From the NCBI GenBank assembly GCA_903847095.1, contig CAINCQ010000011.1, positions 1 through 39,332 of the forward strand: a DNA stretch of 39,332 nucleotides. The letters run 5' to 3'. The DNA is from an uncultured bacterium (GTDB lineage: Bacteria; Patescibacteriota; Minisyncoccia; Minisyncoccales; UBA5738). The notes under the pieces were generated by a model. The model saw only the letters and a program-made list of their open reading frames with translations, had not been told where the DNA came from and ran no database searches. Every line of letters begins with the position of its first letter. Position 1 is the first letter of the stretch. Positions 1-39,332 of the stretch are shown one piece after another. Position numbers and translations under genes: made by a program.

Positions 1-1
1 A

Positions 2-394
2 GACCCGGACGCGGAGGAAACCGCCAATGTCCCTGCTTTGTTCCTCGATTCTAAATTGGCCGTCCATTGCGCCGCGACACTTGGCATCAATTCGGTCTGG
101 TTCAATACCGGCACTTATTCATCCGCCCGGGCCGGAAACGGAAAAATTGTTTCCCTGACCGATGCCGAGCGCGGTTCGATGCTGGATGGAATTTTGGGCG
201 AGGCCATAGCGACGCGATCGCAGGGCTTTAGCGTATTCATCAATTTATTCGCCCAAGATAAAAGAGAGTCGCAAGAAGCAACTGACTGGAGCTATCTTAG
301 AACCACGGAAAGCCGCCGGGCTTTACTTGATTTCATTTCATCCGCCGGCCAGGCCGGTATTCCGCTCTCCCTTTTTGACAGTCAGTTCCAGTAA
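2..394 (+). CDS. C-terminal part of an unrecognised protein (5' end outside window)
   Basis: The reading frame is open from base 2 to the TAA at 392-394 (130 residues) and has no convincing start in the window; the TTG at 38 lacks a ribosome binding site, so this is read as the tail of a gene that begins upstream. The visible residues include FLDSKLAVHCAATLGINSVW, which loosely resembles the segment of HAD-type hydrolases where an Asp-containing loop precedes an 'AA.LG....WF' stretch, but no full HAD motif set can be checked. The rest has no feature I recognise, no membrane segment and no Cys cluster. A hairpin terminator at 485-511 follows in the same direction, which supports this being a real transcribed gene end. 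Function is left open. Confidence 0.55.
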   Translation, partial: DPDAEETANVPALFLDSKLAVHCAATLGINSVWFNTGTYSSARAGNGKIVSLTDAERGSMLDGILGEAIATRSQGFSVFINLFAQDKRESQEATDWSYLRTTESRRALLDFISSAGQAGIPLSLFDSQFQ

Positions 395-484
395 GGGGTT
401 AATGTTAAAAGGGCCCGTTAGGGTCCTGATGGCTTGGCTGGCGGGTTTCAAGGGCCGGAATCGTTTTTGGAATACGTTGTTCTT

Positions 485-511
485 AAAGAGGGTAAACCTC
501 TTTTTCTTTTT
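485..511 (+). terminator. Rho-independent terminator after the partial gene
   Basis: Stem AAAGAGG (485-491), loop GTAAA, stem CCTCTTT (497-503), followed by a T-rich run interrupted by one C. It ends the transcript of the partial gene before the promoter at 582. Confidence 0.75.
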
Positions 512-581
512 CACCGACGCCTTAATTTGGTTTAAAAAAAACGGGAAAAGTAAAACGCTGATGGAGTGAATCCCTTCGATA

Positions 582-610
582 TTGACATAAATAGGGTTTT
601 AATCTATAAA
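582..610 (+). promoter_or_regulatory. Sigma70-type promoter for the secreted protein at 654
   Basis: TTGACA at 582-587, a 17-base spacer, and TATAAA at 605-610. The predicted start point near 617 gives a leader of about 37 bases that carries a GAGG ribosome binding site at 643-646, ahead of the GTG at 654. Confidence 0.8.
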
Positions 611-653
611 GTATATAGCTCATTTCGAGCCGAAATTGAAACGAGGGATCAAT

Positions 654-1133
654 GTGAAAAAAACAAAGATAGTCTTTTTGTGCCTGGCCTTTCTAAGCCT
701 GGCGACAATGTCCGCCGCTCTGGATCTCAGCGGAACACTGGCAAGCCGCGAAGAATTCTACAGCTTCGTACCGGCCGTCAACCCCGACGTGCTCTATGTC
801 AGTCCGCTCGGAACCTGGAACGCCGCGACCGATGGCGAAAGGGTCTTTGGTGTTTTGAGAAACCAATCGAACGACCTGGCTGAAAATTTCACTACGCCTC
901 TAGACATCCGGAAATTACCTAGCGCCACCGATCTGAATGCAGACTACGAAAAGAACAATAGCGGCGTAATGGACGATGCCAATACCCTCCAGAAGCTGAA
1001 CGCCAATAAGGAATGGGATTGGTACCACCGGAATTCGCATCCCCACACCATCACCCAATTCCATAGTGATATGACCAGGGATCCGCTCCTTGCCCTAACC
1101 ACGGTGAAAAATACCGTCGGACACAGAAGCTGA
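654..1133 (+). CDS. Small secreted protein of unknown function
   Basis: A 159-residue protein. The GTG at 654 is chosen over the TTG at 636 because an ACGAGGGA ribosome binding site lies 7 bases upstream and the N-terminus then reads VKKTKIVFLCLAF..., a clean signal peptide with likely cleavage after MSAA (about residue 22). The mature part is polar, has no Cys, and ends in a His/Trp-rich stretch around WDWYHRNSHPHT. I recognise no family. It has its own promoter (582-610) and terminator (1155-1180), so it is a monocistronic exported protein standing beside the polysaccharide locus. Metal binding through the His cluster is possible but is speculation. Confidence 0.7.
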   Translation: MKKTKIVFLCLAFLSLATMSAALDLSGTLASREEFYSFVPAVNPDVLYVSPLGTWNAATDGERVFGVLRNQSNDLAENFTTPLDIRKLPSATDLNADYEKNNSGVMDDANTLQKLNANKEWDWYHRNSHPHTITQFHSDMTRDPLLALTTVKNTVGHRS

Positions 1134-1154
1134 CGCGCTTCCCATATATTGATA

Positions 1155-1180
1155 ACCGCCAAACCAGCGGTTTTTGTTTT
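1155..1180 (+). terminator. Rho-independent terminator
   Basis: ACCGC (1155-1159), loop CAAACCA, GCGGT (1167-1171), then a T-rich tract. It closes the unit of the secreted protein at 654-1133. Confidence 0.7.
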
Positions 1181-1212
1181 ATTTGAAAGATTCCGAATCA
1201 AAATCAAGATCC

Positions 1213-2526
1213 TTATGGACTTGCTCGAAATCGCCGATCTTTTTCGTATTCTTTAAAACTCGCTCTGCCGGCCGTATTTTGTCTGATATTATCGGTAAAA
1301 AAAGAACCGACGTTGGTCGGCCTTTTGGAATATTTCGCATGAACCCGGGTAAAAACCTCGGTTATCGTGCTTGATAAATTCTTGCTCTGAATATCGTTGT
1401 AGCTGAACACATTGACGGTAGTGGCGCCTCCGGCAACCACCATATCGATCTTCTGCTCAAGCTTGCCCCCGTCTTTGGGACCGATGTCGTAAAGGTAGAC
1501 CGATGCGGCCATTTTTTTAGGCTTCGTCTCCCGACAAGTCTTCAAAAATCCGGGAACGTCCTTGATGGGCACTTCGTTGGCTATCATTACGCAGAGGGTT
1601 TCCACGTTTTCGGCTATTTTGTAATAATCCAGACCGTTTGAAACGTACACCCAATCTCCGATCAACAGATGGGGCCGGAACTCCAATTTCCCCGCTTTGG
1701 TTATCATGTTTTGGAACCCGGCTAAGAGATCGGTAACCTGTTTTCCCCTCCAGACTATCCAGTCGTAATTGATTTCATCATGGTCGGAAATATACTTTGC
1801 TTTTTCAACCGTCGTATTTCCGAGAACTTTACGGCCCATGTCGCGTTCAAACCTGGACAGGGTAAAATTATCATAGCTGGACAAAAGCGTCGTATCGTTT
1901 TTCGTAATGTACCAGCAGGGAAATTCGAAATTATCGTTTACGTCTATTCCGTCAACCCCCAAAAATACAAGTTCATCAAAAATTCCTTCCATCTCTTCCA
2001 GGCATTCCGGCTCGACCAGCACCCTTGAAGGAGGCACGATCCGGTAGAAATACGTGTCCAGATACGTATCACTCGGCTTCCCGTTCATGTAGACGGAAAT
2101 CCAGTCGGGATGATCGGCCAGCCATTGCTCTTGCGGAAGATTGACAAGGGCGTACACTTTCATACCGTTAGCATGGGCCGCCGCAACCGTTCTATTGAAA
2201 TAGTTTTGCGGCGAATCCCCCGCCAGCGGCACAAAAAGCGAATCGTAGTAAGCCAGGGTCTTGTGTTTCTTAACATCGTTTTCAATAGCCGTAACTATAA
2301 CCGAGTCGGCGCCCATTTTTTTGACTTCCGTGACCCCTTCTTCGGGATCGCAACGACTGTTGGAACCACAAATCTCGTAGATGCCGAGTTCGATCGAACT
2401 GGTCCGATCGGAATTGTTCCCTTGATCGGCAAATCCAGCTTTTTCCGTTCTAATATCCAAGCTTTGCCCCGGGCCAATGATCAACACCCATAGGAGCAAG
2501 CAGATGATCGCTACAATTCCACGCAT
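1213..2526 (-). CDS. Secreted TIM-barrel glycosidase-like protein (GHL10/PgaB C-terminal type)
   Basis: A 437-residue protein with a hydrophobic N-terminal segment (residues 4-20, IVAIICLLLWVLIIG) that is a signal peptide or anchor. The body has the rhythm of a TIM barrel: YEICGSN near the start, 'AHANGMKVYALVNLP' on an early strand, 'LGVDGIDVNDNFEFPCWY' near the middle, 'FRPHLLIGDW' later, and 'VVAGGATTVNVFSYND' near the end. The DGIDVNDN segment matches the place where GHL10-like hydrolases and the C-terminal domain of PgaB carry their acidic catalytic or binding residues. In PgaB this domain handles partly deacetylated poly-GlcNAc. The start is certain: AAGGAGGT lies just upstream. A perfect -35 (TTGACA, 2605-2600 on this strand) lies about 75 bases upstream without a good -10. 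A beta-glycosidase of another GH family is the main alternative. Confidence 0.65.
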   Translation of the reverse strand: MRGIVAIICLLLWVLIIGPGQSLDIRTEKAGFADQGNNSDRTSSIELGIYEICGSNSRCDPEEGVTEVKKMGADSVIVTAIENDVKKHKTLAYYDSLFVPLAGDSPQNYFNRTVAAAHANGMKVYALVNLPQEQWLADHPDWISVYMNGKPSDTYLDTYFYRIVPPSRVLVEPECLEEMEGIFDELVFLGVDGIDVNDNFEFPCWYITKNDTTLLSSYDNFTLSRFERDMGRKVLGNTTVEKAKYISDHDEINYDWIVWRGKQVTDLLAGFQNMITKAGKLEFRPHLLIGDWVYVSNGLDYYKIAENVETLCVMIANEVPIKDVPGFLKTCRETKPKKMAASVYLYDIGPKDGGKLEQKIDMVVAGGATTVNVFSYNDIQSKNLSSTITEVFTRVHAKYSKRPTNVGSFFTDNIRQNTAGRASFKEYEKDRRFRASP

Positions 2527-2667
2527 TCATTACCTCCTTTTAGAAGAACTACCCATTAACTAACACAAAACGCATTTTTTGCAATACATTGGCTAGTTTT
2601 GTCAACTACTTAGAAGGAGCCTGATTTCTGTTAAACGGCAATGGGCCGTCGCGAGTTTAGTAAACTA

Positions 2668-2687
2668 CCCCGCGGCAAGCCGCGAGG
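2668..2687. repeat. GC-rich hairpin without U-run
   Basis: CGCGG (2671-2675), loop CAAG, CCGCG (2680-2684), extended by ACC/GGT across one mismatch. It lies between the operon terminator and the hydrolase gene. Neither strand has a T-run, so it is not a simple terminator; its role is unknown. Confidence 0.4.
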
Positions 2688-2702
2688 TATTCTGCCAGAC
2701 AA

Positions 2703-2730
2703 ATAAAAAGGTCGAGATTATTCTCGACCT
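2703..2730 (-). terminator. Terminator of the polysaccharide operon
   Basis: AGGTCGAG (2709-2716) and CTCGACCT (2723-2730) form an 8-bp stem with loop ATTATT. On the minus strand it is followed by TTTTTATTT, which suits the end of the operon that runs from 6316 down to 2753. Confidence 0.85.
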
Positions 2731-2752
2731 ATTAACTTCCATTAGGCGATGC

Positions 2753-3052
2753 CTATTTTGTTTTAAAAATTACAGGCACCTCGCTCCTCTTCAATTCTTC
2801 CTGGCTTATGATTCTCGTATTGTCGCAAGTGCAGTTGCTCAGATCGGCTGTTCCGTTGATTAGGGGCGCGTCCGAGCAACAATCAGCCACTTGGAAGGTT
2901 GTCGTGTTGTTCTCTAGCACCGCCTGACTAACTTCCGACGGTGCGTAATATATTCCGCCGCTGATAACTGCTATTACTAGCAGTATCGGATATTTGCACG
3001 CTATGTATAGAAGCGTGTTCGGCGTCGGTATCATAGAAGACGTTTCAATCAC
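2753..3052 (-). CDS. Small membrane protein at the end of the polysaccharide operon
   Basis: A 99-residue protein starting at GTG 3052, 8 bases after the stop of the glycosyltransferase gene. It has one clear membrane helix (about residues 12-35, LLYIACKYPILLVIAVISGG) followed by a polar domain with four Cys (DCCSD and NCTCD) that could form disulfides outside the cell. The C-terminus is charged. No family is recognised. Its position directly downstream of a PgaC-like synthase recalls the small accessory membrane subunits of such systems (PgaD, IcaD), which are of similar size but have two helices; equivalence is only a guess. The ATG at 3034 is an alternative start. Confidence 0.55.
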   Translation of the reverse strand: MIETSSMIPTPNTLLYIACKYPILLVIAVISGGIYYAPSEVSQAVLENNTTTFQVADCCSDAPLINGTADLSNCTCDNTRIISQEELKRSEVPVIFKTK

Positions 3053-3060
3053 CTAACCTT

Positions 3061-4206
3061 TCAGTGTCCTTTGTGCCACACTGTAAGTCTTTTTCCCAAA
3101 ATCCATTCATTCCAGATTGTTTTCAGGAATATATAGCCGTCGACCGGCGCAATTGCCCAATAAAACAACCAGGCTTTAAACGATTTTCTATACCCGTAGT
3201 ACTTGACACCTCCATACATTATATACAAAAACGTCAGGGATAGGTCAAACCCTACCCAGAACAGCAACGCAGTCGGGATCGACGCGCCCGTCGCCAGTGA
3301 ATAGGCGATATACGCGGCAACCGGAAAGTAAGCTAACGGCATTAACAGTCCTGACAGCACATACCAATAAAGCAGTAGGGCCAGCCTCTTCTTTTTCCAC
3401 AGCTGCCACTTGTATAAAGCCATGCTTTGGAAAATGCCGCTTTGCCACCGGCAACACTGTTTAATGTATACCTCCCGGGTCGCGGGATCTATAGGATAGC
3501 ATACCGCTTTCGGTACGAGCTTGACACTGTAGCCTGCGATGTAAGCCTTCCAGGTCAGCGGAATATCTTCGATAATCGCTTCGGCGGGAAATCCGCCCAA
3601 CTGCCGGACTAACGCTGTTTTGAAAAGCGAGAAGCATCCCGATGAGACCAGAGGCACGCCGATATTGTCTTGAGCTTCTTTGGCGAGTCCGATTCCGTAG
3701 ACGTATTGGCCGAAACGCGCCGTGTTCCAAAAATTATTGACGATCTGCGGTATAACAAATCCGCAAGTCGAGAACATCTTGGGGTCGGCCAATGGCGGTA
3801 CTAGTTTTTCGAGAGCTCCTTGGTCCAGGATAGTATCGGCGTCAAGCGTCAGAAACAGTTCCGTATCCACCAGGTCCGTTCCGGAAAGAGCGTAGTTTTG
3901 GGCTCTGGCTTTCGAACCCACGTTCTTGTCCATTCGAAGGGTGATTACACCCATCGATTTTGCAATTTCTCCGGTCCGATCGGTCGAACAGTCGTCTATC
4001 ACGATTATCTTTTTTGGAAGGTAGCTTTGGGCCTGGATGCTTCTGATCGTATTCGCAAGCGATTCTTCCTCGTTATACGCGGCTATTAATACCGTTATAT
4101 CCGGCTTATAGTCGGGCAAATCGGGAACAACCGTTCGTCCGATCATAAAATTCAGGAACTTATTCCTGCTTAGCGCATTCCAGTATTTCCCCAAGGCCAG
4201 GTTCAT
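3061..4206 (-). CDS. Membrane glycosyltransferase family 2, PgaC/IcaA-like polysaccharide synthase
   Basis: A 381-residue processive-type GT2. The GT-A domain shows ITVLIAAYNEEESL (about residues 38-51), IVIDDCSTDRT (first Asp pair), TLDADT (DxD, divalent metal and UDP-sugar binding), EDIPLTWK (catalytic base region) and QCCRW, the Q-x-x-R-W signature of processive synthases such as hyaluronan, chitin, cellulose and poly-GlcNAc synthases. Three or four membrane helices follow (about residues 280-360). It should polymerise a nucleotide-activated sugar at the cytoplasmic membrane and pass the chain outward. Its ATG overlaps the TGA of the upstream epimerase gene (ATGA), which implies translational coupling. 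There is no N-terminal membrane helix, unlike PgaC. The substrate cannot be read from sequence; GlcNAc or a uronic acid derivative fits the neighbours. Confidence 0.85.
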   Translation of the reverse strand: MNLALGKYWNALSRNKFLNFMIGRTVVPDLPDYKPDITVLIAAYNEEESLANTIRSIQAQSYLPKKIIVIDDCSTDRTGEIAKSMGVITLRMDKNVGSKARAQNYALSGTDLVDTELFLTLDADTILDQGALEKLVPPLADPKMFSTCGFVIPQIVNNFWNTARFGQYVYGIGLAKEAQDNIGVPLVSSGCFSLFKTALVRQLGGFPAEAIIEDIPLTWKAYIAGYSVKLVPKAVCYPIDPATREVYIKQCCRWQSGIFQSMALYKWQLWKKKRLALLLYWYVLSGLLMPLAYFPVAAYIAYSLATGASIPTALLFWVGFDLSLTFLYIMYGGVKYYGYRKSFKAWLFYWAIAPVDGYIFLKTIWNEWILGKRLTVWHKGH

Positions 4207-5138
4207 CCCGGCCTCCGATCGCTTTGCTGTTTGAAGTATTCTATCGTTTTTACCAATCCGGAGTCCAAACTGATTTTAGGACTCCATCCCAATCCTTCCA
4301 TCTTTTTACTGCTTCCCCACCTCCGATAAATATCTTTTGGCCTTTTTGGTGCGAAATCGATTTCGCGGCATTTGGTCGGCGGAATCATTTCCTGTAGCTT
4401 GTGGGCCAAATCCAGGATCTGGATCGGCCGCTGTCCGCTCAAATTGTACGCCTCTCCGTCGACTCCGCTGTTTACAACCTTCATCATTCCGTTAACGCAG
4501 TCATCCACGAACATAAAATCTCTTATCTGGGTGCCATCGCCAAAAATGGTCAAAGGCTTCCCTTCAAGCAGATTCCGGATGAAGATGCAGATCACGAAAC
4601 CGTAGGGCGTCGCGTCCTGGAACGGGCCATAAACATTGAACGGCCTGACAGTCACAACCGGCAACCCGAGCTCCTCGAACAAAGACCGGCAATATGCTTC
4701 CGCCGATGTTTTGCTGATGCTGTACACTTCGTCGGAATTCGGGGCGAACGATTCCAGTTTCGGATTACGATCGTTATCGCCGTAAATGCTGGACGTGCTC
4801 ACGTTGAGGATTTTTTTAACTCCAATCTCACGCGCGCTGTTCATCACATTCAGCGTTCCGATAACGTTTGTTTCCCAGGTCATCAGCGGTTGCTCGATGA
4901 CTCTTTTCACTCCCAGCGTTGCCGCCAGATGGCAGACAATGTCGGGCTGATAGGCCTTCATCGCGCGATCCAGCGAAACTTGGTCCAGAATGTCGATTTG
5001 AGCGAACTCCGCCCCTTTGACCACTCTTTTGCCCGTGGACATGTTGTCCAGGATCAAGACCTGATCGCCTTGTTGGAGATATCGTAGCGCGAGATGCGAG
5101 CCGATAAACCCGGCGCCGCCGGTAATTACTATCTTCAT
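4203..5138 (-). CDS. NAD-dependent nucleotide-sugar epimerase/dehydratase (extended SDR)
   Basis: A 311-residue extended short-chain dehydrogenase. It begins MKIVITGGAGFIGSH, the Rossmann GxxGxxG motif, and carries the catalytic Ser (STSSIYGD) and Tyr-x-x-x-Lys (YSISK) with the usual RPFNVYGP substrate-loop motif. Members of this family make UDP-galactose, UDP-GalNAc, UDP-galacturonic acid or related donors. The ATG at 5138 overlaps the TGA of the dehydrogenase gene (ATGA); the in-frame ATG at 5150 would add MRGI and is less typical. Being coupled to a UDP-sugar 6-dehydrogenase and a GT2 synthase, it most likely 4-epimerises the UDP-uronic acid or its precursor, as in the WbpP/TviC and WbpA/TviB pairs. 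The exact substrate is inferred. Confidence 0.88.
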   Translation of the reverse strand: MKIVITGGAGFIGSHLALRYLQQGDQVLILDNMSTGKRVVKGAEFAQIDILDQVSLDRAMKAYQPDIVCHLAATLGVKRVIEQPLMTWETNVIGTLNVMNSAREIGVKKILNVSTSSIYGDNDRNPKLESFAPNSDEVYSISKTSAEAYCRSLFEELGLPVVTVRPFNVYGPFQDATPYGFVICIFIRNLLEGKPLTIFGDGTQIRDFMFVDDCVNGMMKVVNSGVDGEAYNLSGQRPIQILDLAHKLQEMIPPTKCREIDFAPKRPKDIYRRWGSSKKMEGLGWSPKISLDSGLVKTIEYFKQQSDRRPG

Positions 5139-6316
5139 AATGCCACGCACCGGTTGTTTCCCTTATAGATTCTTTTCATATCAACTACCACCATGTCGGC
5201 GTCTTCCTTGATGGGAACCCCATCGATTAGGTAGGCGCTATGGGCCACGGTGATAACCGCAGCGTCCAATTTTTGACCCTCGAAGGGCCTAATACCCAAA
5301 CTTTCGATTTTTTCTCTGGTCAGCATTGGATCATGACCGTAGACATTGTAGCCCCGCTTCTTCAGTAGATTGGCGAGTTCTATCGAACCCGACTCCCTGA
5401 TATCGTCGATATTCGGCTTGTAGGTCAATCCGAATATTACGACATTCGTGCATTTTCCATGGAGTTCTTCGATAACAATGTCCGCGACGTATTGCGGCAC
5501 CGAATTGTTCACTTCCCGGGCCGCGATGAGCAGTTCGGGATAGTAGCCAACTTTGTGGGCCTCGTCGATGAGGTAGTAGGGGTCAACCGGAATACAATGC
5601 CCGCCGACCAACCCTGGTTCCATCCTGATGAAATTCCACTTGGTCGAGGCGGCCTTGATGACTTCTTTGATATCTATACCCATTTCGCGATAGAGCATAT
5701 TTAGCTCATTCATGAGAGCGATGTTCACATCGCGCTGGCAGTTCTCGGTAATCTTTGATGCCTCAGCCACTTTGATCGATGAAGCTTTGAACGTCCTGGT
5801 AATGCGGCCGTAAAAATCCGCCAAACGTTCGGTAGTTTCATCGTCCATACCGGCTACCACTTTGATCAGTTTGTCAATAGTGTGTTCGGGATCAGCCGGG
5901 TTAATGACTTCGGGCGAGTAGCCGATCTTGAAGTCTTGACCGCGTTCCAGGCCAGATGCCTCCTCTAACTTAAAAGCAAACGGTCCTTCGGTGGTTCCCG
6001 GCGCCACTGTCGATTCCAGAATGACCAACTGATTCTTTCCGGTCAGGCCATACCTTCCCACAATTTCGGCCGCTCCCAACACCGCCCGCAGATCCGACTT
6101 CCTATTTGAATCTACCGGGGTTGGGACACAAACCGTGAAGATATCGTGGCCGCTGATCTGGGTTGGGTCGGATGTAAACCTAACACTGGTGTCAAGTTTA
6201 CGGTATTCCCGTATTTTATTCCGATCGATGTCAAAGCCGGTTACTTCGTAATGCTTTGACAGTTCGATTGCCAGCGGCAAGCCAACATAGCCTAGTCCTA
6301 CGCAACATATTTTCAT
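5135..6316 (-). CDS. UDP-N-acetyl-hexosamine/UDP-sugar 6-dehydrogenase (WbpA/TviB type)
   Basis: A 393-residue member of the UDP-glucose/GDP-mannose dehydrogenase family. It shows the N-terminal Rossmann motif (VGLGYVGLPLA, residues 6-16), the VPTP loop, ESTVAPGTT, and the active-site segment GGHCIPVDPYYL with the nucleophilic Cys; this version of the segment is typical of enzymes acting on UDP-GlcNAc, UDP-GalNAc or UDP-ManNAc (WbpA, TviB, WecC) rather than UDP-glucose. The C-terminal domain has FGLTYKPNIDDIRES. It oxidises the C6 alcohol twice with NAD+ to give a UDP-uronic acid in the cytoplasm. It heads the operon, with a strong AAGGAGGA ribosome binding site and a consensus-like promoter about 120 bases upstream. 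Which UDP-sugar it uses cannot be decided here. Confidence 0.88.
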   Translation of the reverse strand: MKICCVGLGYVGLPLAIELSKHYEVTGFDIDRNKIREYRKLDTSVRFTSDPTQISGHDIFTVCVPTPVDSNRKSDLRAVLGAAEIVGRYGLTGKNQLVILESTVAPGTTEGPFAFKLEEASGLERGQDFKIGYSPEVINPADPEHTIDKLIKVVAGMDDETTERLADFYGRITRTFKASSIKVAEASKITENCQRDVNIALMNELNMLYREMGIDIKEVIKAASTKWNFIRMEPGLVGGHCIPVDPYYLIDEAHKVGYYPELLIAAREVNNSVPQYVADIVIEELHGKCTNVVIFGLTYKPNIDDIRESGSIELANLLKKRGYNVYGHDPMLTREKIESLGIRPFEGQKLDAAVITVAHSAYLIDGVPIKEDADMVVVDMKRIYKGNNRCVAL

Positions 6317-6646
6317 TCCGATATTCCTCCTTGGGCACTATGCACCTAATCTCCGATATCTGTTCCTAGTCCGTACCTTCGCTTTGTTCTTTTGTTTTTT
6401 TTCGGTATTTTAAGTTTTTAAAGAGCTTACCTCCGCTGAGAAAATTATTACAGTATGACTAAATTTTTGTCAAGTACCATTTTCGATAAAAATACGGGAA
6501 AAAAGGAAACAATAGTTGTATCTTTCAAAATAATAGTGTATAAACCGAAATTAGCAGTGAGACCAATAAAATAGTTTATTAATTTTAACAATAGGCCGGA
6601 GACAAACAAATTGTTTTCTGCCTTGATAAAATAAAAGAAAAAGAAT
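6317..6646. other. Divergent intergenic region of the polysaccharide locus
   Basis: This 330-base AT-rich stretch separates the minus-strand operon from the deacetylase gene. It holds the operon promoter (6444-6473). For the plus-strand gene only weak promoter-like hexamers are visible, such as TTGTAT followed by TGTATA near 6514-6540, which I do not assign. An 85-codon minus frame at 6448-6705 is Phe-rich and overlaps both the promoter and the deacetylase start; it is judged not to be a gene. Confidence 0.6.
6444..6473 (-). promoter_or_regulatory. Promoter of the polysaccharide operon
   Basis: On the minus strand TTGACA (6473-6468), an 18-base spacer, then AATAAT (6449-6444). It points to the dehydrogenase gene at 6316 with a leader of about 120 bases. 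Confidence 0.75.
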
Positions 6647-9388
6647 ATGAAAAAAATATTATGCTTGTTTTTGTTATCCGTTTTGGTTTGGGCTGGCTTT
6701 GGCAACGCAGGCCTTGTTCACGCTCAAGCTGTCAATCTTATTGCCAATCCTTCGCTTGAAACGGCCAACGGTACGGTACCCCAAGATTGGACTTCGCTTA
6801 AAACCGGTACCAACACTACCACTTTTGCCTACCCGAATTCCGGCGCGCAAGACGGAACGAGTTACGCCAAAATAACGATTACGGCCTATACCAACGGCAA
6901 TGCCAAATGGTTTTTTACGCCGGTAGCGGTTACGGCAGGGCAAAAATACTATTTTACCAATTATTATCTCTCGACCGTCTTATCGACCACGATCGCTGAG
7001 TTTCAGGACGCGGCGGGTAATAAAACAACGCTTACCTTGGGTAGTGACTACGCTTCGGCGTCCTGGAAGCAAGCCGCTTATACCTTTACGGCGCCGGCTG
7101 GCGCGGTTAATGTCACGGTATATCAGCAACTGGCGCGCAAAGGGACGCTCCAAACCGATAATTACTATTTAACTTTAGCCACTGGTACCCTGGTTGTGAA
7201 GAAAGTCGTGGTCAACACCGGAGGCGGAACCCTGACCGCGGCCAACTTCAGTTTCTCGGTCAACGGCGGAACCGCGGTCGCTTTCAACTCCACCGGCCAG
7301 AACAGCCTGACCGAACCGGTCGGAACCTACACGGTTACGGAAACCCCGGCCGCCAATTACAAGACAACTTACAGCAGCTGCACGAACGTATCGGTTAGAA
7401 ATAATCTCACTACCACTTGCACCATCACCAACACGTATCAAGCCGGTACCTTAACCGTGAAGAAAGTCGTGGTCAACACCGGAGGCGGAACCCTGACCGC
7501 GGCCAACTTCAGTTTCTCGGTCAACGGCGGAACCGCGGTCGCTTTCAACTCCACCGGCGTAAATAGCCTGACCGAACCGGTCGGAACCTACACGGTCACC
7601 GAAACCCCGGTCGCCAATTACAAGACGACCTATAGCAACTGTACTAGCGTATCGGTTAGAAATAATTACACTACCACTTGCACCATCACCAATACGTATC
7701 AAGCCGGTACTTTGGTCGTGAAGAAAGTGGTGGTCAACACCGGCGGAGGGACCCTGACCGCGGCCGCTTTCAGTTTCTCGGTCAACGGCGGGACTGCGGT
7801 TCCTTTCAACGCCAGCGGCCAAAACAGCCTGACCGAACCGGTCGGCACCTACGCGGTCACGGAAACCCCGGCCGCCAATTATACTGCCTCATTCAATAAC
7901 TGCAGCGGAGTCGCGGTTGCGGCCAACACCACCACGACCTGCACCATCACCAACACTTATGTGCCACCGACCGGAACTTTAGTGGTCAATGAAATTTTGG
8001 ACAATACCGGCGGCGGGTACGCGACTCTGGCCAATTTCAGTTTCTCGGTCAATGGCGGGACAGCGGTTCCCTTCAACTCCACCGGTCAAAACAGTCTGAC
8101 CGAGCCGGTCGGCACCTACACGGTCACTGTGCCGTCGGTCACCAATTACGCAACATCGTATAGTAACTGTAATTCCATGTCGGTCATTGCCGATGCCACC
8201 ACGACCTGTACCATCACCAATACCTATAATCCTTCTCCCGACAATAGCGTCCCGAATCCTTCGCTCGAGCAGGATTCAGGCACCGGACTGCCGGTATCCT
8301 GGAATAAAATGGGTCTCTGGGGAAGCCTTACTCCGACCTACACCTATCTGACCACCGGCCATACCGGGAACCGCAGCGTCAAAATTGAGGTAAGCAACTA
8401 TTCGAGCGGCAACGCGGGCTGGGAGTTTGACTTTCAGCCGATCACCGGCGGAAAATCGTATCTTGTCAGCGATTACTACCAGTCGAATATCAACACCTTG
8501 GTATATGTCGCCGTTAAAGACGCTACCGGAACGATCAAATTTAACGCGATCGGCCAAGCTCCGGCCTCAACCGGTTGGGCCAAGTATTCCGCCGTATTCT
8601 CCATGCCGGCTAACGCCGTAAGCTACATGTTCTATCAAGCGGTCGAAGGAAACGGCTGGCTGATCACCGACGATTACTCGTTTACCCCTCAAGTCACCAC
8701 CGGTTTTAGTCGCGCTCTGGTGTCAATCAATTTCGACGATGGCCGGATAGGCAATTACACTAATGCACTGTCCTTGCTCACCGCGCATAACTTTAAAACT
8801 ACTCAATATATCGTTACCGAAAGCTTGGCCGGCGCCGATCCCAGTTATTATATGACCCAAAGCCAGATTAACGCCTTTTACGCGCTTGGCCACGAGATCG
8901 GATCGCATACTGTGGACCATAGTAGCTTAACCAAACTTTCCACCGCGAAAGTAGACCAAGAGTTGTCGGAATCAAAGTCAACGCTCGAAGCGCTCTTCCC
9001 CCCGATTAACAACTTCTCCATACCTAATGGAGATTACAATGCGTCGGTCATTACCGAGATCAAAAAATATTATCGTTCCGCCCGCACCAGCAACCTCGGA
9101 TTCAATACCCTATCCAATTTCGATCCGTATGGCATCGAGTGCCAGTATATTACCTATTCAACCACTCTTAGCGATCTGCAAAGCTGGCTGGCCCAAGCGG
9201 CCCAGGATAAATCCTGGCTGGTGATTCTTTACCACGGCGTTGATAATCCACATACGTCGTCCGATGGCGAATATTCAATCACTTCCCAGACATTTAGCGA
9301 CCAGCTTAACGCGATCACAGCCAGCGGATTGCCGGTAGTTACCGTGCAGCAGGCACTGGATGAGATAACGCCTCAATTGCCCCAGTAA
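6647..9388 (+). CDS. Large secreted polysaccharide deacetylase (NodB domain) with four internal repeats
   Basis: A 913-residue exported protein. Residues 1-26 are a signal peptide ending VHAQA. Residues 28-178 and about 530-682 are two related beta-rich modules (NPSLE...W...), like carbohydrate-binding modules of the CBM4/9 fold. Between them lie four repeats of about 87 residues beginning GTLVVKKV at residues 180, 267, 354 and 443, which resemble prealbumin-like stalk domains. The C-terminal NodB domain (about 685-905) has SINFDDGR (metal and base Asp pair), SHTVDHS (H-x-x-x-H metal motif), PNGDYN (in place of RxPYG) and LYHGV. These enzymes remove N-acetyl groups from GlcNAc polymers with a divalent metal. 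The stalk suggests display beyond the envelope. It faces the GT2 operon, so the polymer made there is its likely substrate. A terminator follows at 9418. Confidence 0.85.
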   Translation: MKKILCLFLLSVLVWAGFGNAGLVHAQAVNLIANPSLETANGTVPQDWTSLKTGTNTTTFAYPNSGAQDGTSYAKITITAYTNGNAKWFFTPVAVTAGQKYYFTNYYLSTVLSTTIAEFQDAAGNKTTLTLGSDYASASWKQAAYTFTAPAGAVNVTVYQQLARKGTLQTDNYYLTLATGTLVVKKVVVNTGGGTLTAANFSFSVNGGTAVAFNSTGQNSLTEPVGTYTVTETPAANYKTTYSSCTNVSVRNNLTTTCTITNTYQAGTLTVKKVVVNTGGGTLTAANFSFSVNGGTAVAFNSTGVNSLTEPVGTYTVTETPVANYKTTYSNCTSVSVRNNYTTTCTITNTYQAGTLVVKKVVVNTGGGTLTAAAFSFSVNGGTAVPFNASGQNSLTEPVGTYAVTETPAANYTASFNNCSGVAVAANTTTTCTITNTYVPPTGTLVVNEILDNTGGGYATLANFSFSVNGGTAVPFNSTGQNSLTEPVGTYTVTVPSVTNYATSYSNCNSMSVIADATTTCTITNTYNPSPDNSVPNPSLEQDSGTGLPVSWNKMGLWGSLTPTYTYLTTGHTGNRSVKIEVSNYSSGNAGWEFDFQPITGGKSYLVSDYYQSNINTLVYVAVKDATGTIKFNAIGQAPASTGWAKYSAVFSMPANAVSYMFYQAVEGNGWLITDDYSFTPQVTTGFSRALVSINFDDGRIGNYTNALSLLTAHNFKTTQYIVTESLAGADPSYYMTQSQINAFYALGHEIGSHTVDHSSLTKLSTAKVDQELSESKSTLEALFPPINNFSIPNGDYNASVITEIKKYYRSARTSNLGFNTLSNFDPYGIECQYITYSTTLSDLQSWLAQAAQDKSWLVILYHGVDNPHTSSDGEYSITSQTFSDQLNAITASGLPVVTVQQALDEITPQLPQ
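7184..8232 (+). repeat. Four tandem stalk-domain repeats, near-identical at DNA level
   Basis: Units start at 7184, 7445, 7706 and 7973. The first two are exactly 261 bases apart, as are the second and third; the third unit is 267 bases. Long stretches such as AACACCGGAGGCGG are shared word for word between units 1 and 2, while unit 4 has drifted most (VNEILDNTGGG). This points to recent duplication or gene conversion. Confidence 0.9.
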
Positions 9389-9417: not shown

Positions 9418-9442
9418 GGCCGGTTAAAAACCGGCCTTTTTT
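9418..9442 (+). terminator. Terminator of the deacetylase gene
   Basis: GGCCGG (9418-9423), loop TTAAAAA, CCGGCC (9431-9436), then TTTTTT. Confidence 0.9.
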
Positions 9443-9456
9443 GTTTGCGAAGACGT

Positions 9457-9483
9457 AAAAAAAGACATGCTATTGGCATGTCT
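9457..9483 (-). terminator. Terminator overlapping the stop of the secreted orphan
   Basis: AGACATGC (9463-9470) pairs with GCATGTCT (9476-9483); on the minus strand seven T follow. The stop codon of the gene at 9482-9943 lies inside the stem. Confidence 0.85.
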
Positions 9484-9943
9484 ATTGTCTTTGCTTTGGT
9501 CCTATCTTCCAATCGTAGAGATGATTTTTCCAATCTTGGGCTTTAGCCGCATCTTGGGCCTCGGTCGGAGTCTCAATATAGTTGTCCCACTTTTTCCCGC
9601 TGTCTTCCTGCAGGAAGTTCAATACTTTCTCCGTGTAGTCGTTGGTATGGTTTATCTCCGCTTTTGTACTTAGTTGAGTCAGCGGGTTTACCTCTTCCTT
9701 GGGAGCATCCTGCGGATGCGAGGAAAGGTCTCCCGCGTAGAAGTGGGAAGTGCCAACTGTCTTGTTGTACCACGGAGCTGCGTCGCCGGCGGATGGGAAA
9801 ACCAGGACTACTCCCGGCGTATACTGGGTCAGTAAAGATCCCGTTCCATTGACACTTATGTCTTTCGAGAAACCCGGACTTGTAAACATTGCAACCGCGA
9901 GCAAAATTAGTCCCGCGGTCTGTATTATGCCTATTTTGCTCAT
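9482..9943 (-). CDS. Secreted protein of unknown function
   Basis: A 153-residue protein. The start is well supported: an AAAGGAG ribosome binding site sits about 10 bases upstream, and the N-terminus MSKIGIIQTAGLILLAVAMF is a signal peptide with likely cleavage after PGFS (about residue 26). The mature part is acidic and polar, has no Cys and several Trp (APWYN, KKWDNY, QDWKNHLYDWK). I recognise no family. It is a monocistronic unit with a promoter at 10094-10122 and a terminator overlapping its stop. It lies back-to-back with the deacetylase gene, each ended by its own terminator, so it need not belong to the polysaccharide pathway. Confidence 0.7.
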   Translation of the reverse strand: MSKIGIIQTAGLILLAVAMFTSPGFSKDISVNGTGSLLTQYTPGVVLVFPSAGDAAPWYNKTVGTSHFYAGDLSSHPQDAPKEEVNPLTQLSTKAEINHTNDYTEKVLNFLQEDSGKKWDNYIETPTEAQDAAKAQDWKNHLYDWKIGPKQRQ

Positions 9944-10419: not shown

Positions 10420-10448
10420 TTGACACCCTCTTGATGTTTTGTTATGCA
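10420..10448 (+). promoter_or_regulatory. Promoter for the SDR-like gene
   Basis: TTGACA (10420-10425), a 17-base spacer and TATGCA (10443-10448). The -10 box covers the ATG at 10444, which rules out that codon and supports the start at 10483. Confidence 0.7.
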
Positions 10449-10482
10449 GATTAGAAGAACCTTAACAAGGAGAGTGGAAATT

Positions 10483-11388
10483 ATGACGGACGACCGAGTA
10501 TTCGTAATAACGGGCGGCGCGAGCGATTTCCTCGGGAGATCATGCGCGGAACTTTTAATCCGGGCCGGAAAGGAAGTCATTGTGATCGACAACGCCACCG
10601 ATGAAGCGTTCGGTTTTATTCCCGACGCGGAGATCATTCATCTTAACATAGACAACGGACTGCTTGAAGAAAAACTCGGCGGACTGGAAAATAGAATCAA
10701 CGTCATTCACTGCCAAACACAAAGCTGTTGCGAACCGGACTTGCTAAAAAACAGCGAGCGGAATCTGGTCGAGCAGCTGGTTTTTTTAAGACTATGCCAA
10801 AAATTGCAGGCGCAAAAGGTCACGGCTTGCCTTGATGCCGAATTGCTGTTCGCCAATCCGCTGGAACTGCCCGTAACTGAAACCGACCGGGAGTCTCCGG
10901 GAAATTTAGCGGGCGTCAATCACCTCGTTATCGAATCACATCTGCCCATCTTAAGCCTGCCTTGGGCTTCGATACGCTCATCGACCTTGTACGGCCCCGG
11001 TCAACGGGAAGGCGTGGTACCTTTGGTTTTTTCCAAATTGGAGCATAATGAACCGCTCGACGATTTTTCGCCCAAAACTTCGACCAAGGATCTTATCCAT
11101 GCCAACGATGCCGCGGCCGGAACAATCGCGGTCGCGATCAACGGACACGGGATTTATAACATCAGTACCGGAAGAGAAACCCAACTTAGCGCTTTAATAA
11201 AAGTAATGCGCAAAATAAACGGATCGCAAAGCGGGATAACCGGAACAAAAAAACGGGAAATAATTTATCAGCGGTCTTGTTTTAGCCCCAATAAAGCCAA
11301 CAGAGATCTGGGCTGGCAACCGATCGTCTCGCTAAAAGAAGGGATCGAATCCACCGCGGCCTGGCTGCAAGACAATTCGATTTCGTAA
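10483..11388 (+). CDS. SDR-family NAD(P)-binding protein lacking the catalytic Tyr-Lys pair
   Basis: A 301-residue relative of nucleotide-sugar epimerases. The start at ATG 10483 has an AAGGAGA ribosome binding site 8 bases upstream. The N-terminus VFVITGGASDFLGRS is a modified GxxGxxG Rossmann motif. Family-like features later on are SIRSSTLYGPGQ (cf. R-x-x-N-V-Y-G-P), STKDLIHANDAA (cf. DF-V-H-V-D-D) and the C-terminal NKANRDLGWQPIVSLKEGI. Where active members have Y-x-x-x-K, this protein reads SPGNLAGVNHLVIE, with no Tyr or Lys in register. It is therefore probably a binding or regulatory homologue and not an epimerase. It has its own promoter and terminator and stands 4 kb from the sugar operon, so a link to it is only suggestive. 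Confidence 0.75.
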   Translation: MTDDRVFVITGGASDFLGRSCAELLIRAGKEVIVIDNATDEAFGFIPDAEIIHLNIDNGLLEEKLGGLENRINVIHCQTQSCCEPDLLKNSERNLVEQLVFLRLCQKLQAQKVTACLDAELLFANPLELPVTETDRESPGNLAGVNHLVIESHLPILSLPWASIRSSTLYGPGQREGVVPLVFSKLEHNEPLDDFSPKTSTKDLIHANDAAAGTIAVAINGHGIYNISTGRETQLSALIKVMRKINGSQSGITGTKKREIIYQRSCFSPNKANRDLGWQPIVSLKEGIESTAAWLQDNSIS

Positions 11389-12759: not shown

Positions 12760-13869
12760 TTATTGTTCCACGCAAAGCAAGTGCATCGAGGAATTGCAGC
12801 TCCGGCCGATCAAACCGGTCGAGCCGTCGCTTGAGATCACGGAACCCCAGGCTCCGACGATATTGGCCGGAATACTTTTTCCGGCGTCATTGTAGCATCG
12901 GTCAAGCCCGGCGAAGTCGGGCACGTTCCCGGAATAGATCTTTTCCTTGTTCTGCGACCAATTCTGGCAAGTCGTGTCAAAAGAAAAATCCTCCTGCGAA
13001 TTATTGATCGTGAGACAATCTTTTTTTAAGTTAGGCGTAAGACGGCCCAGCCAGATGTGCCCGAAATTTTTAATCATCTCATCGTCAATCTTGAGCTTCA
13101 CCGATTCCGCCGAAAGCGTGAATTTTTCCACCAGCCGTTCGGTATTCTCGGCGAACAACCGATGGCAAGTCGTACCTTCCACCAAAGACAGCGATCCTTC
13201 GGCCTTAATGAAAATGCTGGGCTTGGTGATCCGCTCTTTGGCCGAGATGGAGTCATCTCCGAGAAAAGCGATATAGTTGCCGGTGAAGCCCAGCTTTCCC
13301 GCTTCCTGCATGCACTTTTTATCGGCGCCCTCAAGACCGCCAAGATCGCCCTTGTAGCTGCCAGTGGTAATAAAAAGCTTTTTCGCGTTATCGTAGTTGC
13401 TGGCTATGAAGGGAAACTCGGCTTCTACCGACAGATCCTCGCAGGACGTATATTTAGCTCCCAGGATCTGAATGGTTTTGTTGGAATAACTGACCAAATT
13501 GCCTTTTTTCCAGGGATACTCAAAGATCACGATCCTAAAATCATTACCCGGTTTCTGGTAAACGAATGATTTCCATTCGTAAACGCCCTGACTGGCCGGA
13601 ATATTCCTTGCTATCCACGTAACCCCGGTATTGGAATAAAGGATGATGGAAACGCGATCCACTTTGGCAGCACTCCATTTTATCGTATACGCGTCGCCCG
13701 CTTTTAACGTCACCGCCTCCTTTCCCTCCACGAGCGTCAAATTGCGCGTTGACGTTAAAAAGGTGGCGGCAAGAACAATCACCAGAATCAGGATCACTAA
13801 TCCGGCTACGATCAAAACGCGATATTTTTTGAACGCCGACTGCTCTTCGATCATTTCTTCGTTTTCCAT
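12760..13869 (-). CDS. Membrane-anchored protein with a DUF1554/C-type-lectin-like domain
   Basis: A 369-residue protein with a short cytoplasmic N-terminus and one membrane helix (about residues 18-38, RVLIVAGLVILILVIVLAA). An Ig-like domain follows (about 45-135, TLKAGDAYTIKWSAAKVDRV...), of the Ser-Thr-rich/GPI-anchored type seen in many secreted bacterial proteins. The C-terminal part (about 160-369) has KLFITTGSYKGDLGGLEGAD and KCMQEAG...NYIAFLGDD, the pattern of DUF1554, a lectin-like fold related to endostatin; paired Cys near DRCYNDAG and SCNSSMHLLC are probably disulfides. It is probably a surface protein that binds carbohydrate or protein. No terminator is seen before rplJ's promoter. 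The family call rests on motif resemblance. Confidence 0.7.
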   Translation of the reverse strand: MENEEMIEEQSAFKKYRVLIVAGLVILILVIVLAATFLTSTRNLTLVEGKEAVTLKAGDAYTIKWSAAKVDRVSIILYSNTGVTWIARNIPASQGVYEWKSFVYQKPGNDFRIVIFEYPWKKGNLVSYSNKTIQILGAKYTSCEDLSVEAEFPFIASNYDNAKKLFITTGSYKGDLGGLEGADKKCMQEAGKLGFTGNYIAFLGDDSISAKERITKPSIFIKAEGSLSLVEGTTCHRLFAENTERLVEKFTLSAESVKLKIDDEMIKNFGHIWLGRLTPNLKKDCLTINNSQEDFSFDTTCQNWSQNKEKIYSGNVPDFAGLDRCYNDAGKSIPANIVGAWGSVISSDGSTGLIGRSCNSSMHLLCVEQ

Positions 13870-38196: not shown

Positions 38197-39332
38197 ATGT
38201 GTTTAAGAAAAAATATTGTGCTTGTTTCTACCATTTTGGCTCTATTAGCCATACCGATTATTTACGCGCATGCAGCCAGCTTAGACGAGATTCAGTCGCA
38301 GATCAATTCGATCATGCAGCAGATAGCCACGCTAATCAATTCATCCGGGCAGGCATCGCTAAACTCATCAAGTCCGGTCTGCATCGGAACGCTTATCGGC
38401 AGTGATTGCACGAAAGCCGGCGGCAAGTTTGTTTGCACGGGTTGCTCGACAGACACGGTAAATTGCACCGCCCTGCCCTGCTCCTGCGTATGTTCTCCGT
38501 GCGCGAATGAGGGCGAACTTTCTTATATGGCCACTTCCGCTTACGAAAAACAACCTCATTCCTGTTGCGCCGGATTAACTGCCGTCATGAATGCCGAATA
38601 TACCGGTTCGACATGCGCCGCGCCCGGCAACGGCACACAGCGTTGCGTTAAATACGGCGACGGAAAATGCGATAAAGGGAAAGGAGAAAACGAATGTAAC
38701 AGCCTTAAAGATTGCCCTTATCCATCACCCGTCTGCGGCAACAGCCAGTGCGAAACCGGCGAGACCGCAACCAGCTGTCCCCAAGACTGCGGCAAGTCAT
38801 GCGAGGAATCTTGCAAGGCGCAAGGCTACACCTACAGTGCTTGCAACAGCTACGCGGTTACGGCCGGCACGTCGCAATGCAAGGAAGGATATACGAGTAT
38901 CGGCCAAGCTAAAGACTGCTATGTCACCCCCGGAACAACAGGCGCCGGAAAAGCTTGTTGCTGCACCAACCCGAATCCAATCTGCGGCAACGGAAAATGC
39001 GAGACCAATGAAACCGCGGCCAATTGTCCCAAGGATTGCGGAAACAAGTGCGAAATGGCAAGCACCGACACCAATCCTCTTGTTTGCCGGAAAACCTGCA
39101 ACGAGGATGAAGCGGCGGTCGATACCAGTTGCGATGTAAACGGCAGTTGCTGTAAAAAAACCAGGATCTGCGGCAACAGCCAGTGCGAAACCGGCGAGAC
39201 CGCGACCAGCTGTCCCCAAGACTGCGGCAAGTCATGCGAGGAATCTTGCAAGGCGCAAGGCTACACCTACAGTGCTTGCAACAGCTACGCGGTTACGGCC
39301 GGCACGTCGCAATGCAAGGAAGGATATACGAG
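38197..39332 (+). CDS. Cys-rich secreted repeat protein (3' end outside window)
   Basis: An open frame of 378 codons from ATG 38197 to the window end. It starts with a signal peptide (NIVLVSTILALLAIPIIYAH, cleavage near AHA), then a short coiled-coil-like stretch (LDEIQSQINSIMQQIATLIN) and a Cys-rich region with many Cys. CGNSQCETGETATSCPQDCG occurs twice and CGNGKCETNETAANCPKDCG once; this CGNGxCExGExxxxCPxDC pattern is common in secreted proteins of CPR bacteria and archaea. It probably folds as small disulfide- or Ca2+-stabilised modules on the surface. The ribosome binding site is poor. The C-terminus cannot be seen. Function is unknown; adhesion is one possibility. Confidence 0.8.
   Translation, partial: MCLRKNIVLVSTILALLAIPIIYAHAASLDEIQSQINSIMQQIATLINSSGQASLNSSSPVCIGTLIGSDCTKAGGKFVCTGCSTDTVNCTALPCSCVCSPCANEGELSYMATSAYEKQPHSCCAGLTAVMNAEYTGSTCAAPGNGTQRCVKYGDGKCDKGKGENECNSLKDCPYPSPVCGNSQCETGETATSCPQDCGKSCEESCKAQGYTYSACNSYAVTAGTSQCKEGYTSIGQAKDCYVTPGTTGAGKACCCTNPNPICGNGKCETNETAANCPKDCGNKCEMASTDTNPLVCRKTCNEDEAAVDTSCDVNGSCCKKTRICGNSQCETGETATSCPQDCGKSCEESCKAQGYTYSACNSYAVTAGTSQCKEGYT
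38732..39332 (+). repeat. 435-base periodic repeat inside the Cys-rich gene
   Basis: The 166 bases from 38732 to 38897 recur at 39167-39332 with a single visible mismatch (GCA versus GCG in a Thr-Ala-Thr segment). The period is 435 bases, or 145 residues. The second copy is cut by the window end, so the true length of the repeat is unknown. Confidence 0.9.

Follow-up and report, generated by a model that had tools for sequence, protein, structure and literature searches.

We report on a 39,332-nt contig from an uncultured bacterium of the patescibacterial order Minisyncoccales (CAINCQ010000011.1; the whole stretch is hereafter the window), which encodes a membrane glycosyltransferase of family GT2 together with a UDP-sugar 6-dehydrogenase and an epimerase-type short-chain dehydrogenase/reductase (SDR), flanked by genes for two secreted proteins, a GHL6-family glycoside hydrolase-like protein and a NodB-type deacetylase (Table 1). 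We consider it likely that these genes constitute a patescibacterial cassette for a synthase-dependent exopolysaccharide, which would work in the manner of Pga and Pel without being a Pga system. An earlier sequence-only reading had described the two secreted proteins as a split PgaB-like pair around a PgaC-like synthase operon. Open reading frame (ORF) calls and a Pfam scan of the window confirmed all five large ORFs and the separation of the hydrolase-like and NodB proteins on either side of the operon, and both proteins indeed belong with a GT2; the literal splitting of PgaB was not supported, the hydrolase being GHL6 and the NodB domain HfsH-like. Given that the glycosidase beside the pair varies among relatives, a more fitting description of the locus is that of a GT2-NodB core with a recruited secreted glycosidase.

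The GT2-NodB core and its glycosidases across the phylum

The association of the NodB and GHL6 proteins with GT2 exceeds chance. A profile of the NodB domain (A3) was run on 145 genomes of the phylum and 246 of the order, and the test set consisted of 24 independent loci from this subfamily of NodB proteins, none of them used in building any profile. A PgaC-like GT2, counted when it reached at least 100 bits with the GT2 profile built here and lay at most 2.5 kb away, was found at 15 of the 24 loci compared with 0 of 27 loci encoding other NodB proteins (Fisher p = 4.1e-7), with the caveat that sister genera contribute some of the 24, that the scores of a few overlap those of the controls and that several contigs are too short for both genes. 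The 15 GT2-positive loci represent 11 GTDB families.

The grouping proposed from the window recurs elsewhere. In the distantly related Candidatus Parcubacteria isolate RS_14_22 (G079), GT2, NodB and GHL6 genes follow each other in tandem, nearly without gaps. In a genome from another class of the phylum (G382), GHL6, NodB, GT2 and SDR genes are clustered in a stretch of about 5 kb, with genes for a protein with a SipW-type signal and a SipW-like peptidase coming next, and in G016 the GT2 and NodB genes overlap. The NodB protein of G079 has two repeats resembling carbohydrate-binding modules, and the GT2 of that genome carries a fused DUF2334 domain at its N-terminus (L042:6712-9006).

The secreted glycosidase encoded next to the pair belongs to GHL6 at three loci (the window, G079 and G382), to GH26 at five (G272, G350, G220, G204 and G219; 31-54 bits in Pfam, cut-off 20.2) and to a GH5-like family at one (G294). 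The GHL6 and GH26 profiles match none of the control loci, which were not scanned for every glycoside hydrolase family. Because GH26 takes the place of the glycosidase in more relatives, these data suggest that hydrolases were recruited independently, not that PgaB underwent fission. Furthermore, four distant patescibacteria have sortase genes next to the NodB and GT2 genes or between them (G381, G383, G369 and G313; L115, L116, L117 and L121), and SipW/TasA-type genes adjoin the pair in G079, G016, G382, G101 and contig C9 of the genome under study.

These patterns bear on whether the NodB and GHL6 proteins might instead scavenge environmental chitin or the exopolysaccharide of a partner as food, with GT2 an incidental neighbor. 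Secretion, the carbohydrate-binding-like domains and the epibiotic lifestyle generally attributed to bacteria of the Candidate Phyla Radiation (CPR) would suit such a role, but this NodB subfamily is tied to the synthase across families and other NodB proteins are not, which makes scavenging very improbable.

Proteins of the locus and the predicted pathway

The 913-amino-acid (aa) NodB protein scores 71.1 bits with the Pfam model Polysacc_deac_1. Its NodB domain is C-terminal (nt 8702-9376) and contains the motifs FDDG, HTVDH and VILYH; the CE4/NodB metal site (DD and HxxxH) and the catalytic His are intact, and the residues D, D, H, H and H do not vary among at least four homologues. Upstream of this domain, the protein consists of a signal peptide, a jelly-roll-like domain (aa 30-178), four SpaA/prealbumin-like repeats and a second jelly-roll-like domain (aa 548-680), the jelly-roll-like assignments following from sequence pattern; both of these domains resemble those in the other NodB protein of the genome. 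The SpaA-like repeats (window 7196-8171) share 78-84% DNA identity, apparently through recent expansion. The closest NCBIfam model for the NodB domain is HfsH (63 bits, cut-off 400). The PgaB/IcaB-type deacetylase models in NCBIfam score far under their cut-offs (TIGR03938, 12 bits; TIGR03933, 15.9 bits), and a BLASTP comparison of the protein with PgaB was insignificant.

The hydrolase-like protein passes the GHL6 model (PF14871) narrowly, at 36.4 bits against a cut-off of 35. The family assignment is nonetheless sound because its homologue in G079, 43% identical, passes the cut-offs of both GHL6 (49.3 bits) and GHL10 (41.8 bits); the homologue in G382 reaches 38.6 bits with GHL6. GHL13/GH153, the domain of PgaB, was not found in the protein by the Pfam scan. 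A comparison with the halves of PgaB, suggested by the sequence-only reading, gave no support: hhalign produced no alignment with Escherichia coli PgaB (probability 0.8%). As to a TIM-barrel fold, an AlphaFold model built from two sequences only shows alternating strands and helices, but it has a predicted local distance difference test (pLDDT) score of just 51.6 and no significant Foldseek match, and was left aside. A single-protein search of 247 genomes of the order retrieved the G079 homologue alone, plus one weak match, and a collection-wide contig scan likewise yielded only the G079 contig. Weak PF14871 matches occur in about 20 genomes of the order; the one that was scanned proved to be DUF4015 (PF13200, 324.8 bits) and not a true GHL6. 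At the other loci of the phylum with near-cut-off PF14871 matches (L074-L082), GT2-NodB neighbors are absent.

The synthase scores 91.8 bits with GT2 in Pfam and contains the motifs DAD, IEDI and QCCRW and hydrophobic C-terminal segments, without an N-terminal transmembrane (TM) helix. It thus has the hallmarks of processive membrane GT2 enzymes (D, DxD, ED, QxxRW and C-terminal TM helices) and, judging from these motifs, appears to be of the PgaC/NodC type. The label PgaC-like stands insofar as PgaC_IcaA (TIGR03937) is the best NCBIfam model, with 26% identity to E. coli PgaC, and falls short in that the score is 122.9 bits against a cut-off of 422.3. The 99-aa ORF, which begins 8 nt past the end of the synthase gene on the minus strand, sits where PgaD/IcaD would; similarity to these proteins is undetectable, and the ORF has no Pfam or NCBIfam match.

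A true poly-beta-1,6-N-acetylglucosamine (Pga/Ica) system, with PgaB split into two genes, could account for the best model of the GT2 and for the functional parallel with PgaB. Such a system is nevertheless improbable: the hydrolase is GHL6, not GHL13/GH153, and does not align with PgaB, the NodB domain is not PgaB/IcaB-like, the GT2 lies far under the equivalog cut-off, and GH26 and GH5-like proteins fill the same place in relatives.

The SDR matches Epimerase in Pfam (214.5 bits), and its motifs STSSIYG and YSISK are presumably those of a 4-epimerase rather than of a decarboxylase or dehydratase. A UDP-xylose synthase or 4,6-dehydratase was rejected because STSSIYG replaces the SEVYG/DEVYG of those enzymes; the dehydratase model is also well under its cut-off. 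The dehydrogenase has the UDPG_MGDP_dh domains (Pfam), passes the subfamily model TIGR03026 (324 bits, cut-off 190) and has UDP-ManNAc dehydrogenases as its best matches in the PDB; TviB is the best of the substrate-specific models (269.5 bits, under the cut-off of 592). The amino-sugar-type motif attributed to this enzyme, GGHCIPVDPYYL, is present at residue 238. The proposal that the polymer contains the uronic acid of an amino sugar is plausible and goes no further, because the dehydrogenase joins the cassette in this genome alone; the amino-sugar uronate, if real, would therefore be specific to this genome.

The gene overlaps read from the sequence are real, with 16 nt shared by the dehydrogenase and SDR genes and 4 nt by the SDR and GT2 genes (start/stop overlaps on the minus strand). 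As for promoters, the site upstream of the dehydrogenase matches 11 of 12 consensus positions, and the scan as a whole showed no excess (10 found, 13 expected). The GHL6 gene lies downstream of the operon on the same strand and is probably a separate transcription unit, since the 99-aa ORF and a strong terminator-like hairpin intervene; the NodB gene is divergent from that of the dehydrogenase.

This arrangement lends itself to a different explanation, namely that the dehydrogenase, SDR and GT2 make a glycan of surface glycoproteins or a wall polymer of the teichuronic type and that NodB and GHL6 act elsewhere, on a partner's polysaccharide or on peptidoglycan, as unrelated neighbors. The terminator between GHL6 and the operon, the divergent NodB gene and the position of the dehydrogenase and SDR outside the recurrent cassette fit this explanation, yet GT2-NodB clusters, with or without a glycosidase, recur in distant families that lack the dehydrogenase, and the GT2, with its QxxRW motif, appears to be a processive enzyme of the PgaC/NodC type. 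We therefore regard it as unlikely.

Under the favored reading of an exopolysaccharide cassette, the membrane GT2 would polymerize UDP-N-acetylhexosamine or its 6-oxidized derivative and extrude the chain. The secreted NodB protein would strip N-acetyl groups, its carbohydrate-binding-like domains probably anchoring it to the polymer, and the secreted GHL6 protein would cut or trim the chain. From the 6-dehydrogenase and epimerase, both co-translated, this synthase would probably receive a UDP-amino-sugar uronate of the GlcNAcA/GalNAcA type.

Several observations weigh against this reading. GHL6 and this NodB are both absent from a genome of the same genus (G001), and one of the same family (G002) has the NodB with no GT2 nearby. 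The structure model of GHL6 is of low confidence, a terminator-like hairpin parts its gene from the operon, and at none of the other loci examined does the dehydrogenase accompany the cassette. For GlmU, the genome contains only sub-threshold matches, which leaves the supply of UDP-GlcNAc unproven. Finally, what was observed is the gene content, the motifs, the overlaps and the conserved clustering; the enzymatic activities of the cassette members, their substrates and a single polymer product are predictions.

Table 1. Features at the start of the window, in window coordinates
Feature	Position	Strand	Basis
C-terminal part of 397-aa secreted protein	2..394	+	94% identity to full copy L046:11241-12431, between second GT2 and second NodB
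Secreted 165-aa protein	636..1133	+	Upstream region and signal peptide from same duplicated 397-aa gene; 433-781 has 81% DNA identity to C9
GHL6-family glycoside hydrolase-like protein, secreted or anchored, 437 aa	1213..2526	-	PF14871 match; G079 homologue; hydrophobic N-terminus
Terminator-like hairpin between GHL6 and synthase operon, 9-bp stem, T-rich tail	2709..2730	-	Pattern match only
99-aa ORF, single predicted TM helix, Cys-containing tail	2753..3052	-	ORF call
PgaC-like membrane GT2 synthase	3061..4206	-	Pfam, NCBIfam, motifs
Nucleotide-sugar SDR, epimerase type	4203..5150	-	Pfam; motifs GGAGFIG, STSSIYG, YSISK
UDP-sugar 6-dehydrogenase, TviB/WecC-like, with GGHCIPVDPYYL	5135..6316	-	Pfam, NCBIfam, PDB matches
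Promoter-like site TTGACA-18-AATAAT upstream of dehydrogenase	6444..6473	-	Consensus matches; pattern only
Secreted 913-aa NodB protein	6647..9388	+	Pfam, NodB motifs
Strong bidirectional terminator-like hairpin 3' of NodB gene	9418..9436	+	Pattern match

Just past the NodB terminator, on the opposite strand, lies a gene for a secreted 153-aa protein of unassigned family (9482-9943). Farther along the window are an SDR paralogue (10444-11388), 24% identical to the operon SDR and lacking the YxxxK active site, which is possibly a non-catalytic nucleotide-sugar protein, and a membrane-anchored protein (12760-13869) that contains a Kre9/KNH-like Ig domain and matches DUF1554 weakly. A 166-bp repeat, 99% identical between its copies at 38732-38897 and 39167-39332, ends the contig and reflects either an assembly break or a true repeat.

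A second module in the same genome

The genome encodes two NodB proteins above the Pfam cut-off, each beside a GT2. The second module, on contig C9 (L046), comprises SipW/TasA-type genes, a GT2, a 397-aa secreted protein and NodB; region 212-9165 of that locus encodes a SipW-type signal peptidase, several TasA/camelysin-like proteins with SipW-dependent signals and a 1440-aa protein. The gene for the 397-aa protein is duplicated: the N-terminal half of its second copy ends C9 (L046:16582-16870) and the C-terminal half opens the window (1-394). The two broken halves have matching orientations, and in the 120-129 bp adjoining the assembly break each matches the first copy with 100% identity. Apart from a fragment at window 629-781, no further copies were found. 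From these matching halves, the end of C9 probably adjoins the start of the window, about 340 bp of repeat having been lost from the assembly; if so, both modules and the TasA-like genes belong to one cluster. The 397-aa protein is possibly a very distant relative of GH26, which is not established (hhalign probability 5%).

More tentatively, patescibacteria may widely encode an undescribed matrix system that combines the GT2-NodB core, interchangeable secreted glycosidases (GHL6, GH26 or GH5-like) and proteins handled by SipW/TasA-type machinery or sortases, which in this genome would take the form of a single cluster of two modules and TasA-like genes, with an amino-sugar uronate polymer as the product of one of the modules.

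Comparison with known systems

Accounts of CPR bacteria present them as epibionts with a reduced metabolism, and the bacterium studied here, a very small cell, probably depends on partners. The GT2-NodB core recurs in distant relatives, and therefore CPR cells may make a matrix of their own and not only rely on partners. A conserved polymer synthase encoded by the cell together with a deacetylase and a trimming enzyme would imply that some CPR bacteria build a matrix or adhesive themselves, which could underlie attachment to hosts and aggregates, and the cassette supplies concrete genes for expression. No literature on exopolysaccharide cassettes or TasA/SipW systems of CPR bacteria was found in open-licence PMC, and a term search of the text of a large operon survey returned no mention of candidate phyla (PMC7112194).

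Individual components recall several systems. The holdfast deacetylase HfsH provides the best model for the NodB domain, which differs in its sub-cut-off score and in belonging to a protein with SpaA-like and jelly-roll-like domains. The 6-dehydrogenase and epimerase resemble TviB and TviC, which serve the amino-sugar uronate of the Vi antigen, whereas the synthase here is a GT2 and no Vi export genes were seen. The SipW-type peptidase and proteins with SipW-dependent signals beside the GT2-NodB pair are reminiscent of the Bacillus TasA/SipW matrix, although nothing of it beyond the signal-peptide type and the peptidase can be recognized here.

The closest parallels in overall working are Pel and Pga. 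In Pel, the hydrolase/deacetylase PelA is reported to act on an amino-sugar polymer made by a synthase (PMC12022489), and Gram-positive pel operons (pelDEADAFG) reportedly encode a stand-alone deacetylase, PelADA (PMC13254593). The cassette would share this pairing of deacetylase and hydrolase and differs in having a GT2 instead of the Pel synthase complex, with no PelF, PelD, PelE or PelG seen, and a hydrolase of another family. With Pga/Ica it shares the genetic linkage of a membrane GT2 synthase, a NodB deacetylase and a hydrolase activity. PgaB (GH153) pairs a deacetylase with a hydrolase, both directed at an amino-sugar polymer that a synthase makes (PMC5933820), and the operon survey reports the hydrolase domain from Gram-negative PgaB only (PMC7112194). 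Here, by contrast, the two activities are separate, no PgaA, PgaD or IcaC was seen, scores fall far short of the cut-offs for PgaC and PgaB, and the hydrolase is GHL6 or GH26. The comparison suggests that the pairing of hydrolase and deacetylase in exopolysaccharide systems arose repeatedly, with different hydrolase families.

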